DNA of 37,328 nucleotides from Ignavibacteriales bacterium (GTDB lineage Bacteria; Bacteroidota; Ignavibacteria; T3Sed10-11), in the NCBI GenBank assembly GCA_003568415.1, contig PWXV01000122.1, positions 1-37,328 on the forward strand. Reading direction: 5' to 3'. The notes beneath the pieces are model-generated. The model searched no databases, was not told the origin of the DNA, and worked only from the letters and a program-made list of their open reading frames with translations. A program made the translations under genes and the position numbers. Below are positions 1 through 4,564 of this stretch, piece after piece (position 1 is the stretch's first letter; each line of letters begins with the position of its first letter).

Positions 1-890
1 GCAAGCAGTTCGACGGATGTTCTCACGGAAAAATCAAAATGGTTTTGCAAATAATTCGGTGCTTCCCATCTGAATGCACGGTCCCCGTGTCCGCATTCTG
101 CGAGAATTAATTCCTTTGAATTCAGTTTTTTCACTTCATCAAGCATTCTTTGTGCAATAATCCCGGCTTCTTGTAAATTTCCGGAGAAGAAGGCATAATT
201 CGTCACATCATACATGTGCGTCGAGAGCGTCCAGCTCTCTTTTGCAACATAAAATATTTTTGCCATTGCGGAAATCGAGAGGGGAAAAAACTTCGGTTCG
301 CGGGGATTTAAAGTATATAATATTTTCCTGTCTTTTTCATTCAACGGAATTGAAGCATCGGGATCATTTACTTCATCACGCAATTCTTCCTCAAGCCATT
401 CCAGCGTATCCACGAAATCATCGGTAGTGATACTCATATTGTTTCCGCTTGTCAGTGCTGCATCCACGGTCGACTGAAGTGTCGCCGGAGTCAACCCCAT
501 TTCCGCGAGCATCGCCCTGCCGATACTTACCAGATATGCGATATCGACACCGACCGAACAATGTATATTGCACCGGCCGCACAATGTGCACGCCCCGTAG
601 AACAAGTCTATAAATTCTGCGGTTGTTGTATCATTCAGTTCCTTTGCATGTACGAACTTGGGAAAGGTTCGTCCTATATAGGTATAGTACCGTTTATAAA
701 TCGACGATAGCAATGCAACTTTTTTGGCGGGAATGAAAGCATTGTCTTGCATGGCTGCGTAATACATGCAACTTTCGGCACATAATCCGCAACGCACACA
801 GCTATTAATGCCCGTCAGAAATCTGCCGTCATCGAATCTCCTGAATATGTCCAAACCTTTTTCTATAGTATGTATTGAGAGCGGTTCCAT
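1..890 (-). CDS. DsrK/HdrD-like (Fe-S) oxidoreductase subunit, partial
   Basis: I translated this by eye from the ATG at 890. It runs off the window edge, so about 296 residues are visible and the C-terminus is missing. Two ferredoxin-type clusters are present: C31xxC34xxC37xxxC41 and C101xxC104xxC107xxxC111, each able to bind [4Fe-4S]. Near the edge an AECGHG motif at about residue 264 starts what looks like the cysteine-rich CCG domain of HdrD/DsrK proteins, which holds the catalytic non-cubane cluster. In DsrMK and HdrDE this subunit is cytoplasmic and reduces or oxidises a disulfide using electrons from a membrane cytochrome b. The gene starts 4 nt after the cytochrome-b-like gene and two genes after dsrC, so a DsrC trisulfide or disulfide is the natural substrate. 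Whether it is DsrK, TmcB or another HdrD paralogue cannot be decided from this fragment. Confidence 0.82.
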   Translation of the reverse strand, partial: MEPLSIHTIEKGLDIFRRFDDGRFLTGINSCVRCGLCAESCMYYAAMQDNAFIPAKKVALLSSIYKRYYTYIGRTFPKFVHAKELNDTTTAEFIDLFYGACTLCGRCNIHCSVGVDIAYLVSIGRAMLAEMGLTPATLQSTVDAALTSGNNMSITTDDFVDTLEWLEEELRDEVNDPDASIPLNEKDRKILYTLNPREPKFFPLSISAMAKIFYVAKESWTLSTHMYDVTNYAFFSGNLQEAGIIAQRMLDEVKKLNSKELILAECGHGDRAFRWEAPNYLQNHFDFSVRTSVELL

Positions 891-894
891 AAAA

Positions 895-1509
895 TTAATT
901 TTTAACCGGAGGCCACGTTCCTCTCCATCCGTAAAAGAGACCTAAGTGATAGCGCGCAGCGAAAAAGTATACTGCATGCCTGAGCTTCCCGACGGGTATA
1001 TACAATAACAGTGCACTTACAACTATATAGTATACCGGCAGTGAATAGTGCATATAGACGAGTGTGAACAGTTGAAATGCCGTAACTAAAACATTCGAAA
1101 TATAATCGTCAGGTTGTGTTAATGTTTTGAGTAATTTTGAAAAAATTCTTTTCAGTAAAATTCCAATCCCGCATAAAACGGATACTGCGAGAAAAACGGA
1201 AAACAATAATTCTATAGATCGATGTAATTCAATTGAAAAGAGAAAAATAAAAAATAATATTACCGAAAGGAATGTTCCCAGATGATATAGCACACCCGCA
1301 CTATAAGTCGGCAAATGTAAATAGGCGGATTCCTTGTGCGCGGGATTCATCGCTTTTGTAAACGAATATGTTATCGCACATCCAATATCACCTGCAGATT
1401 TCGAAAAATCCTCAGGATTGCCGAGTTTAATAATTCGTATTGCGTGATATACACAACCTGCAATACAAACTACTAATGAGAGATAGGTAACTACCAGGTA
1501 CCATTTCAT
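895..1509 (-). CDS. DsrM/HdrE/NarI-like membrane cytochrome b subunit
   Basis: A 204-residue membrane protein with about five hydrophobic segments (roughly 3-27, 72-95, 100-118, 137-153 and 157-178). Histidines within or next to them (H22, H76, H154, H178, H188) could serve as haem b ligands. The segment around residues 175-189 (KLRHAVYFFAARYH) resembles the end of the NarI-type gamma subunit fold. The family passes electrons between the quinone pool and a cytoplasmic Fe-S subunit. The length is close to five-helix HdrE/NarI proteins and shorter than long DsrM forms. It lies between dsrC (12-nt gap) and the HdrD/DsrK-like gene (4-nt gap), which is the best support for the call. Haem binding is inferred from the family; the exact ligands are not established here. 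Confidence 0.75.
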   Translation of the reverse strand: MKWYLVVTYLSLVVCIAGCVYHAIRIIKLGNPEDFSKSAGDIGCAITYSFTKAMNPAHKESAYLHLPTYSAGVLYHLGTFLSVILFFIFLFSIELHRSIELLFSVFLAVSVLCGIGILLKRIFSKLLKTLTQPDDYISNVLVTAFQLFTLVYMHYSLPVYYIVVSALLLYIPVGKLRHAVYFFAARYHLGLFYGWRGTWPPVKN

Positions 1510-1521
1510 AATTTAAGAATA

Positions 1522-1839
1522 TTAGACACATCCATCGGGTTTCGGCAGACCTGCAACCCTGCATGCACCGCGGGCCGGCCCCAGGGGAAACAACTCATAA
1601 ATTTCACGTAATTTTATACCGGTTTCCCGGCATATACTCCGTATCATCGGTGCGTTCCCCTTTTCTTCATAATGTTGTCTGATAAAATTTACGATAGCCC
1701 AGTGCTTTTCATTCATTTCATCAATGCCGTCGTATTTAGCAAAAAGCATTGCCACTTCATCATCCCATAATTCGGGGGTGCTGAGAAAACCATCGCCGTC
1801 GACTTCGAATGTTCTTCCGTCTATTTCAATTGTTGCCAT
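1522..1839 (-). CDS. dsrC: DsrC/TusE-family sulfur carrier with both redox cysteines
   Basis: A 105-residue protein starting MATIEIDGR. The open frame extends 45 codons further upstream, but that part is unlike the family and the compact DsrC fold starts here. The C-terminal arm reads GACRVAGLPKPDGCV. C104 is penultimate and C93 lies 11 residues before it, which is the two-cysteine pattern of true DsrC. TusE-type proteins, which serve tRNA thiolation, keep only the last cysteine. In sulfite-reducing or sulfur-oxidising organisms these two cysteines carry a trisulfide between DsrAB and the DsrMK membrane complex. The two genes downstream are a cytochrome b and an Fe-S disulfide-reductase-like subunit, in the order dsrC-M-K. 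No strong Shine-Dalgarno is seen. No dsrAB is in the window, so direction and pathway are open. Confidence 0.92.
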   Translation of the reverse strand: MATIEIDGRTFEVDGDGFLSTPELWDDEVAMLFAKYDGIDEMNEKHWAIVNFIRQHYEEKGNAPMIRSICRETGIKLREIYELFPLGPARGACRVAGLPKPDGCV

Positions 1840-2226: not shown

Positions 2227-2400
2227 AATTTTTAGCTTTTCGTGCAAGGATTTCACTGCTATGCGCCTAAAAAATTTATAAAGCTAAAATGTATCTATAC
2301 GTAACATTAGTTTTAAAAGTATCTCTAAGTAATTATACTGCTTTTTTGATTTTTTGTCAATTAATCGTGTGCTGAATGAGTTACCTTTAAAAGTTGTTTC

Positions 2401-2431: not shown

Positions 2432-3409
2432 TCACTTCCCACCTCTTCCACTTCTCCGTTTCTTCTTCATCACCTCCTTCGCGATTTCGATGCCATGATC
2501 ATACCGCATCTGCTGGGTCCGTTCCGAGAAATCGAGCGTATCGCCCATTTCAATTGCGGGTTCGAACAGGAACGAACGATAATGCTTGTATGGTTTTCCC
2601 TTTTCATTATGCAGGATTACCCCCGCGTTCCCCGCTTCCTTCACATTCTTGTTAATGCGCTTAAACTCACGTATATCACTGATAACAATCCGGTTCAATA
2701 ACAGCTCCAGACTGCGTGATCCAACCTGGAGGATGTTTTTCTTCCCCGGTGAGATGGTTTGCGGGTGCTGGGATTCACAATTAAATACATATACTTCGGT
2801 GGGCTCCTCGTCAATCAAATTGCCGAGTGGCGATATCATATGCACGCCGCCGTCGACAAGCAGGTTCTCTCCCATTTCAACCGGCGGGAAGGTCACGGGT
2901 ATCGCAGTGCTGGCGAGTACCGCAAGACGATATGCATTGACGAAATCATCGACGGATGCCACCCGTAACACTTCGCTGCCGTCAACAATTACCTCTACTT
3001 CCCGTTTCTCGTGCCGGTAATCATAGCTGAGAAACTTCCCGCTAATAAGGTCAACAACACCGATCTTTACATCTATCGCAAACTCGCGCGGATCTATTTC
3101 TTGTTGTATAAGCTCCCACAGAGGACTATTATTATAGATATGATTACGTCCGAACGCTATCCTCATCAGGTTGACAGGGCTGGTCATCGATCCGGTAAAA
3201 ATATCATGCTCGCGTAACGAAAAGAAAAGGTCTTTGTACCGGTTGAATTTGTTCTGTGCCACCATTGCTGCGGCAAGCGCTCCAACACTAATGCCACCCA
3301 CTATGTCGAATTGTACATTATGTTCCTGAAGTACAACCTCGAGGTTTCCGACCTGCACCATCCCTTTCGCTCCGCCCCCCGAAAAGGCTGCTGCTCGTTT
3401 CACAGGCAT
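2432..3409 (-). CDS. Patatin-like phospholipase
   Basis: A 325-residue patatin-domain protein. The oxyanion loop GGGAKG is at residues 11-16, the nucleophile motif GISVG at 39-43 (Ser41), and the catalytic Asp in DGG at 186-188, so the Ser-Asp dyad is complete. Proteins of this family are lipid acyl hydrolases (phospholipase A-type). No signal peptide is visible, so it is probably cytoplasmic or peripheral. The ATG at 3409 has a strong GGAGG 7 nt upstream. The C-terminus is short and basic (KKKRRSGRGGK). It is the last gene of a coupled run (RidA-like lipoprotein, ParA, acyltransferase, patatin) and starts 15 nt after the acyltransferase stop, suggesting a lipid or envelope acyl-chain role. 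The substrate is unknown. Confidence 0.9.
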   Translation of the reverse strand: MPVKRAAAFSGGGAKGMVQVGNLEVVLQEHNVQFDIVGGISVGALAAAMVAQNKFNRYKDLFFSLREHDIFTGSMTSPVNLMRIAFGRNHIYNNSPLWELIQQEIDPREFAIDVKIGVVDLISGKFLSYDYRHEKREVEVIVDGSEVLRVASVDDFVNAYRLAVLASTAIPVTFPPVEMGENLLVDGGVHMISPLGNLIDEEPTEVYVFNCESQHPQTISPGKKNILQVGSRSLELLLNRIVISDIREFKRINKNVKEAGNAGVILHNEKGKPYKHYRSFLFEPAIEMGDTLDFSERTQQMRYDHGIEIAKEVMKKKRRSGRGGK

Positions 3410-3424
3410 ACATACCTCCGTATA

Positions 3425-4564
3425 TTATTTATGGGGTAAAAAGAGCTCGCGTAATGCGGGCGCTCTCGTTAAAATTGCTTCACTCAGGATCCATACAACA
3501 AGCCAACTCACTATGATTATTGCGGGTATTAGTATATAGTTTGTAATATTTGTTTGCATTCCATATAAAGCAAGCGGATATAATACCAGTGGATGTAAGT
3601 AAAACATAGCATACGCGTTTTTTGCCTGACTATCCCAGAATAATGAGCGTTTGTTTAGATATTTTCGAAAGACCGCTATTAAAGCGATAACAGATGAATA
3701 ACAAAACATATTAAAGGTAACCGCCGTAACACCCGCCACCGCAAACTGCGGTCCCATAGTATAATACATCGCCAGTCGTGCGGTCAGATATGCAATAGCC
3801 GAAATACATGCAAGCGGAAGCCATAGTTGTAACTCGGGAATATATCCCGATTTTCGAAACCAACCATTTTTAAATGCATACAAACCGAAGAAAAAATAGC
3901 CGATATACGGTGGTACCCGTACCGGCTGTACCATAACAAGATAGCCGAAATGTACCCACTCATCCTTTGGTACTGACTGATTAATGACAAAAAACCCGAT
4001 ACTCATAACTGTTATAAACACAGCGATGAATCCCCACGTCGGTTCACGAAATGTAACATGGAGTGAACGGAATGAAATACTTGCAGAATACAAAATGCTG
4101 ACACACCCGAAGCATAGTAACAACACCCCGAGTATCCAGTAAACCGATTGCTGATAATATTCAGCCCAAAAATGACTCTCAAGAAACAATGAATACGGGA
4201 GTTGTGGATTTTCAGATACCGCTAACAGATAGGCGACCGGCGGGGTAAATAATAATACGCCGACGATCCATGGCAATCCTTTTCGTTTAATTTTATTGAG
4301 GAGAAATGTACTGTTATTCTGTTGCAGAATAGTTGGATAGACAAAATAACCTGCTACGAATAAAATGATGAAATATACGGGAACATCTATAAGCGAGACA
4401 ACCGATGCAATCATCCAGTTCACGTCAAATTCGATTATATACTGCCACACAGCCGGCTGCGGCGAATAGGTCATCAATCCGTGCATAATAATGATACCTA
4501 TAACTGCAACGGCACGAAGATTATAAAAGAATTCGAACCGCTCATCGTTACCGCTTTGATTCAT
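3425..4564 (-). CDS. Acyltransferase-3 family integral membrane protein
   Basis: A 379-residue polytopic protein with about ten hydrophobic segments. The N-terminus (residues 10-28, containing NLRAVAVIGIIIMHG) carries the early Arg (R17) and His (H28) typical of acyltransferase-3 (OafA/OpgC-like) enzymes. These move acyl groups, such as acetyl or succinyl, across the cytoplasmic membrane onto glycans, lipids or peptides outside. The layout resembles the OpgC/MdoC branch more than long OafA proteins with SGNH domains, since no extra C-terminal domain is present. Its ATG overlaps the stop of the ParA gene by 4 nt (ATGA), so translation is probably coupled. The substrate cannot be read from the sequence. 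Confidence 0.82.
   Translation of the reverse strand: MNQSGNDERFEFFYNLRAVAVIGIIIMHGLMTYSPQPAVWQYIIEFDVNWMIASVVSLIDVPVYFIILFVAGYFVYPTILQQNNSTFLLNKIKRKGLPWIVGVLLFTPPVAYLLAVSENPQLPYSLFLESHFWAEYYQQSVYWILGVLLLCFGCVSILYSASISFRSLHVTFREPTWGFIAVFITVMSIGFFVINQSVPKDEWVHFGYLVMVQPVRVPPYIGYFFFGLYAFKNGWFRKSGYIPELQLWLPLACISAIAYLTARLAMYYTMGPQFAVAGVTAVTFNMFCYSSVIALIAVFRKYLNKRSLFWDSQAKNAYAMFYLHPLVLYPLALYGMQTNITNYILIPAIIIVSWLVVWILSEAILTRAPALRELFLPHK

Follow-up and report, generated by a model that had tools for sequence, protein, structure and literature searches.

One question raised by this locus is what function is served by a DsrC protein that keeps both catalytic cysteines and is encoded beside a membrane cytochrome b and an HdrD/DsrK-like iron-sulfur protein. 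The sequence-only reading had offered sulfite or organosulfonate respiration, sulfur oxidation, or a DsrAB-independent thiol-redox role. The DNA analysed (hereafter the window, 37,328 nucleotides) is a whole contig of an Ignavibacteriales assembly of 342 contigs (94.9% complete genome), and the genome-wide negative results given for this organism refer to family searches of that 94.9% complete assembly. Three genes lie on the minus strand in the order, from position 1839 to position 1, dsrC (1522–1839 including the stop codon, 1525–1839 without it; 105 amino acids, ATG start), the gene of a cytochrome b-type membrane subunit (895–1509, or 898–1509 without the stop codon; 204 amino acids, five helices, NarI-like fold) and the gene of an HdrD/TmcB/HmcF/DsrK-like iron-sulfur protein (1–890, readable frame 3–890). 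This third gene is open at the contig end and provides the first 296 of ~431 residues. The intergenic gaps are 12 bases between dsrC and the cytochrome b gene and 4 bases between the latter and the iron-sulfur gene. This arrangement confirms the gene content first proposed for positions 1–1839. The grouping is not due to chance, because dsrC and the cytochrome b gene precede the same iron-sulfur gene in 77 of the 78 related loci with enough upstream sequence (counted after redundant loci had been removed and genomes of the class added).

A perfect TTGACA-N17-TATAAT pattern match (2332–2360, minus strand) precedes dsrC by ~490 bases, although promoters of this phylum may differ; the stretch in between shows no evident gene, and the dsrC leader had no Rfam match. 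Further upstream, a patatin-like phospholipase and an acyltransferase (2432–4564, minus strand) separate dsrC from a ParA gene. Both are absent from the congeneric locus L022, where the ParA gene adjoins dsrC.

GTDB genomes were scanned using the iron-sulfur protein as query, and 219 loci were confirmed. The best 80 of these 219 loci were examined; by their record titles they belong to Bacteroidota, with the exception of one MAG labelled Alphaproteobacteria. The neighbourhood of that locus (L194, SACF01000007.1) is the same as that of the Bacteroidales locus L192, and the record is probably mislabelled. In two congeners, G005 (L022) and G003 (L023), and in G009 from another family, a further gene directly follows the iron-sulfur gene. 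G005 carries the whole operon, and the G003 contig carries the end of the cytochrome b gene, the HdrD-like gene and this fourth gene (csd). The product of the fourth gene in the relatives matches TIGR01977, "cysteine desulfurase family protein", with 415 and 439 bits (cut-off 377); GHK, the motif of the PLP lysine, and the RTGLxC loop are both conserved in it. It is encoded directly downstream in 71 of the 78 loci with enough flank, counted in the same way as above. Loci that lack this adjacency usually belong to genomes with a copy elsewhere (L163, L167, L217, L221 and L228 were positive; no close copy was found in the L173 genome). A close copy of the desulfurase was present in 12 of 13 module genomes tested versus 1 of 40 non-module genomes of the class (Fisher p 6e-10). 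The module is a conserved operon, dsrC, NarI-like cytochrome b, HdrD-like CCG protein and cysteine desulfurase, which also occurs in other families of the class and in numerous uncultured relatives; its genes have come apart in a few relatives.

Because the contig ends before this position, we can only infer the fourth gene of the organism itself, from two congeners. No orthologue of the desulfurase was found in the 94.9% complete assembly, where the best matches showed 30–33% identity. The window had been described as a minimal unit without the JOP subunits. No JOP subunits recur in the flanks of the complete relatives, so that this part of the description stands, but the fourth gene, which lies beyond the contig end, had been missed. 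Contig C265 was considered as the completion of the iron-sulfur gene and was rejected; it carries a LutA fragment followed by LutB/LutC-like genes (named from sequence).

The DsrC protein of the window scored 117.7 bits with the Pfam model DsrC (PF04358, cut-off 24.9) and 101.3 bits with TIGR03342 (cut-off 53.5), and its score with the TusE model (64.9 bits) was below the cut-off of 191. It is the only DsrC-family protein of its genome and is 90% identical to the L022 copy. At its C-terminus, CRVAGLPKPDGCV, numbered GPARGAC(93) and RVAGLPKPDGC(104)V, two cysteines are separated by ten residues. By translation, Cys93 (codon 1561–1563, minus strand) occupies a position absent from TusE-type proteins, and Cys104 (codon 1528–1530, minus strand) is at the penultimate, sulfur-binding position. 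Both are kept in all 78 module DsrC proteins. The presence of both cysteines and the TusE score below its cut-off identify this protein as the two-cysteine form and not TusE, as had been proposed. Its nearest solved relatives are the DsrC proteins from sulfate reducers (2xsj, 2v4j and 3or1) and from Pyrobaculum (1ji8). Three groups were resolved in the DsrC tree: the module proteins (support 98/97), the DsrAB-linked proteins (97/77) and the single-cysteine proteins (100/99). The module DsrC forms a separate clade that groups with the DsrAB-linked proteins beside it, apart from the single-cysteine forms that are common in the class. Most loci of the latter, including L139:1459-4733, consist of an operon encoding a MerR regulator, a type III SQR (selenoprotein-type model), a coiled-coil protein of no assigned family, DsrC and DsrE2.

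According to PMC3397948, the second cysteine of DsrC is confined to organisms bearing DsrAB, a few named exceptions apart. This rule of co-occurrence does not hold for the module. The family NIR_SIR (PF01077), which covers DsrAB as well as assimilatory and Asr-type enzymes, had no match in any of the 62 module genomes (the own genome and 61 others). The same search was positive in 11 of 14 control genomes, and in all ten relatives of families f7, f19 and f22, which carry canonical DsrK or other DsrK-like genes. Since a siroheme sulfite reductase is absent from the 62 genomes, neither sulfite or organosulfonate respiration nor Dsr-type sulfur oxidation, two of the roles first suggested, is supported; the search of the own genome for dsrAB was negative, and sulfite reduction by the module was discarded. 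The third suggestion, a DsrAB-independent thiol-redox role, proved to be the right line; such a role in thiol or persulfide chemistry fits these data.

The iron-sulfur subunit contains a first [4Fe-4S] motif, CVRCGLCAESC (768–800), a second one, CTLCGRCNIHC (558–590), and an ECGH motif (87–98), all on the minus strand; the complete CCG motif (C...CC...CxxC) would lie beyond the contig end. Complete relatives (L022, L023 and L024) are 67–86% identical to it, and the two [4Fe-4S] motifs, ECGH and one CCG motif were found in 79 of 79 complete relatives. With the DsrK model NF045796 (cut-off 400), the incomplete protein of the window scored 143.9 bits and the complete L022 protein 233.2 bits. The latter reached 284 bits with both TmcB (cut-off 735) and HmcF (cut-off 750) in NCBIfam. 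Both the incomplete and the complete form are therefore nearer to HmcF/TmcB than to DsrK and fall below every cut-off, whereas DsrK proteins encoded near dsrAB in the same class scored 732–740 bits. A tree unites the module proteins in a single group (support 99), which is remote from the dsrAB-linked DsrK, although long branches leave the exact sister group unsure. The best fold match was mycobacterial EtfD, followed by LutA and HdrB, and EtfD alone was retrieved by the PDB sequence search. This protein belongs to the HdrB/HdrD-type CCG superfamily and is not DsrK, because the complete versions score far below the cut-offs and form a clade of their own. The name DsrMK is loose: a membrane cytochrome b is indeed paired with a CCG iron-sulfur protein, but the latter falls in a separate HdrD/TmcB/HmcF/DsrK-like clade and is not DsrK itself. 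In family f19 (L107-L112), a cytochrome b gene is accompanied by the gene of a fusion between an HmcF-like protein and a response-regulator-like domain, and then by that of a conserved ~470-amino acid protein.

No Pfam family matched the cytochrome b subunit, which showed weak similarity to HmcE/TmcC. Its AlphaFold model (pLDDT 88.9) shows five long helices. In Foldseek, each of the eight top-ranking PDB matches was E. coli NarI (probability 0.99–1.00, E 0.07–0.19), with TM values of ~0.44–0.49 that denote moderate similarity. Histidines 22, 65, 76, 178 and 188 are conserved in 70, 72, 77, 77 and 61 of 77 sequences, respectively, His76 and His178 being invariant. Because of the NarI-like fold of the model and these conserved histidines, the subunit is likely to bind haem b and to contact quinone.

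The neighbours of the module point to persulfide and thiol chemistry. In 8–9 of the best 80 loci, all from Bacteroidales, DsrE2, TusA, FlpD and HdrA-like genes are found right after the desulfurase gene, and SQR-like and DsrE2-like genes precede the module in a few Bacteroidales. The extended loci (L162:8628-13293, L195:8587-13266 and about six others) continue from the module with DsrE2, TusA, FlpD, an HdrA-like flavoprotein and HdrA; a second class-V aminotransferase is encoded upstream and an FNR-type regulator on the opposite strand. Such a second class-V aminotransferase was found near the module in 18 loci. Directly upstream of dsrC, 39 of the 80 loci (e.g. L226:4767-5012) encode a protein of ~82 residues with five conserved cysteines (CPN..xC, YC, CKR, FCPDFVLPDT), which has no Pfam or NCBIfam match and is absent from the window. 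No description of the module was found in the literature searched, which lay mostly outside subscription journals and wholly outside preprints. The module is a well-conserved combination, new to that literature, of known parts.

The explanation of the operon as a whole that we put forward, to which we give an even chance of being right, is that the desulfurase loads sulfur from cysteine onto DsrC and that the menaquinol-linked membrane pair reduces the resulting persulfide or disulfide, with release of sulfide. The sulfur of cysteine, or of a similar organosulfur amino acid, would be removed by the PLP-dependent desulfurase, with alanine as the other product, and passed as a persulfide to Cys104 of DsrC. 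Cys93 would then attack the Cys104 persulfide, so that sulfide is set free and DsrC is left as a disulfide or with a bound sulfur/trisulfide. The HdrD-like subunit would carry two [4Fe-4S] clusters and the site of a catalytic CCG cluster; anchored at the membrane by the cytochrome b, it would reduce the DsrC disulfide with electrons from menaquinol. The net reaction would be a menaquinol-dependent conversion of cysteine into alanine and sulfide without DsrAB. The transfer from desulfurase to DsrC has a direct precedent, since IscS and cysteine persulfurate the DsrC of A. vinosum at the penultimate cysteine in vitro, without other carriers (PMC3397948). In the model of the Dsr system, the sulfur leaves DsrC through the action of the second cysteine, and the disulfide formed in this step is reduced by the Dsr membrane complex (PMC10504309, PMC3397948). 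The proposed cycle follows from joining this precedent to that model.

The genes present, their order and co-occurrence, the motifs of their products and the lack of siroheme sulfite reductase are observed here; which compound donates the sulfur, how it is handed over, which way the electrons flow and whether energy is gained, we infer from them. DsrC-type reactions run in both directions in nature, and hence the genes by themselves do not fix the direction of the electrons. The conversion of cysteine into alanine and H2S has a potential of ~-0.1 V (a rough estimate from formation energies), near that of menaquinone. This value allows the reaction, but, being so close to menaquinone, it gives no confident claim of energy conservation, and any gain would be small or conditional. 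A more specific proposal, which is tentative and rather doubtful, is that anaerobic Bacteroidota possess a DsrAB-free, DsrC-dependent respiration or electron sink, in which cysteine (or another organosulfur amino acid akin to it) would be reductively desulfurated at the expense of menaquinol, by way of the desulfurase, the two-cysteine DsrC and a distinct HdrD-like/cytochrome b complex of the membrane.

The same genes might work in the oxidative direction, DsrC bringing sulfane sulfur or thiol electrons to the membrane pair so that menaquinone is reduced while sulfide or polysulfide is oxidised, the desulfurase playing a secondary part. The DsrE2, TusA, FlpD and HdrA-like neighbours of some Bacteroidales, the SQR-like and DsrE2-like genes that precede the module in a few, and the type III SQR and DsrE2 encoded beside the related single-cysteine DsrC of the class are consistent with this possibility. 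We consider it unlikely, given that this context is confined to the few extended loci whereas the desulfurase is nearly universal, that no reverse-type DsrAB exists in the 62 module genomes, and that TusA is missing from many of them: 26 of 41 module genomes gave no match (a 284-amino acid frame of the own genome shows one weak domain match), and a TusA relay therefore cannot be essential. This last result, together with the lack of a Cys93 equivalent in TusE, the low score with the TusE model and the absence of a membrane quinone-linked subunit from the Tus system, also makes it quite improbable that the module supplies biosynthetic sulfur in a TusE-like manner, either for thiolation of tRNA or for assembly of cofactors, the membrane pair freeing usable sulfide. 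A cysteine desulfurase and a DsrC-family protein do take part together in the Tus relay of E. coli (PMC3397948), and a single DsrC-family protein in the own genome would agree with such a role.

A general thiol-redox line, in which DsrC would serve as a thioredoxin-like carrier, kept in its reduced state by the membrane pair, and would recharge the desulfurase or other thiols of the cytoplasm, with no respiratory flux of sulfur, would account for a compact operon without a dedicated oxidant enzyme and for its presence in many genomes. However, it leaves unexplained why DsrC is used instead of thioredoxin and why two cysteines are strictly retained beside one particular desulfurase, and its probability is comparably low to that of the oxidative direction. 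A role in selenium metabolism, the TIGR01977 enzyme being a selenocysteine lyase and DsrC handling selenium, appears very improbable. The family has been proposed as a selenocysteine lyase (PMC2276186), and the next-best model for the desulfurase is SclA (315 bits, cut-off 525). This role is weakened because selD was not found above the family cut-off in 20 of 51 module genomes, including the own genome and two module-bearing congeners.

A two-cysteine DsrC has been taken as a sign that sulfur metabolism is based on DsrAB, few exceptions being named (PMC3397948), and the module, in which this form is strictly kept, occurs in at least 62 genomes without siroheme sulfite reductase. Matches to dsrC or to "dsrMK-like" genes in Bacteroidota would thus mislead surveys that deduce sulfite or sulfate respiration from them. 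These results suggest that the module handles sulfur in a way new to the literature searched. If the proposed mechanism is true, sulfide in sediments, lakes, digesters and animal guts would have a further source, derived from cysteine and linked to quinone, and the reductase step of DsrC could be examined in a small system free of DsrAB.

Comparison with known systems places the module beside several of them. It resembles DsrC with DsrMK or DsrMKJOP of sulfite and sulfate reducers in that a two-cysteine DsrC stands beside a quinone-facing cytochrome b and a CCG subunit; it differs from them in the absence of DsrAB or any siroheme reductase, in an HdrD-like subunit below the DsrK cut-off and in the added cysteine desulfurase. 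DsrMK without JOP is known, as are a few DsrMK-bearing assemblies without DsrAB (PMC10504309). The TmcABCD and HmcABCDEF complexes of Desulfovibrio give the best, though weak, matches of the cytochrome b (HmcE/TmcC) and the iron-sulfur subunit (TmcB/HmcF), but the scores of the latter are far below the cut-offs of 735–750, no conserved multihaem cytochrome c gene adjoins the module, and dsrC lies within the operon. EtfD is membrane-bound and quinone-linked. The mycobacterial enzyme, also a CCG protein, is the best PDB match of the HdrD-like subunit by both sequence and fold; it is, however, a single larger protein with a different partner, and its identity in the structural alignment is 17%. 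Family f16 (L025-L027, L113 and L114) has a cluster of MerR, DsrE2, TusA, cytochrome b and HdrD-like genes with no DsrC nearby. Its cytochrome b/HdrD-like pair is related to that of the module (HdrD-like proteins 35–41% identical), with TusA and DsrE2 in place of DsrC and the desulfurase. Finally, the E. coli Tus relay (IscS-TusA-TusBCD-TusE) shares with the module a cysteine desulfurase and an acceptor of the DsrC family, whereas in the module TusA is mostly absent, DsrC carries the second cysteine and a membrane reductase is present.
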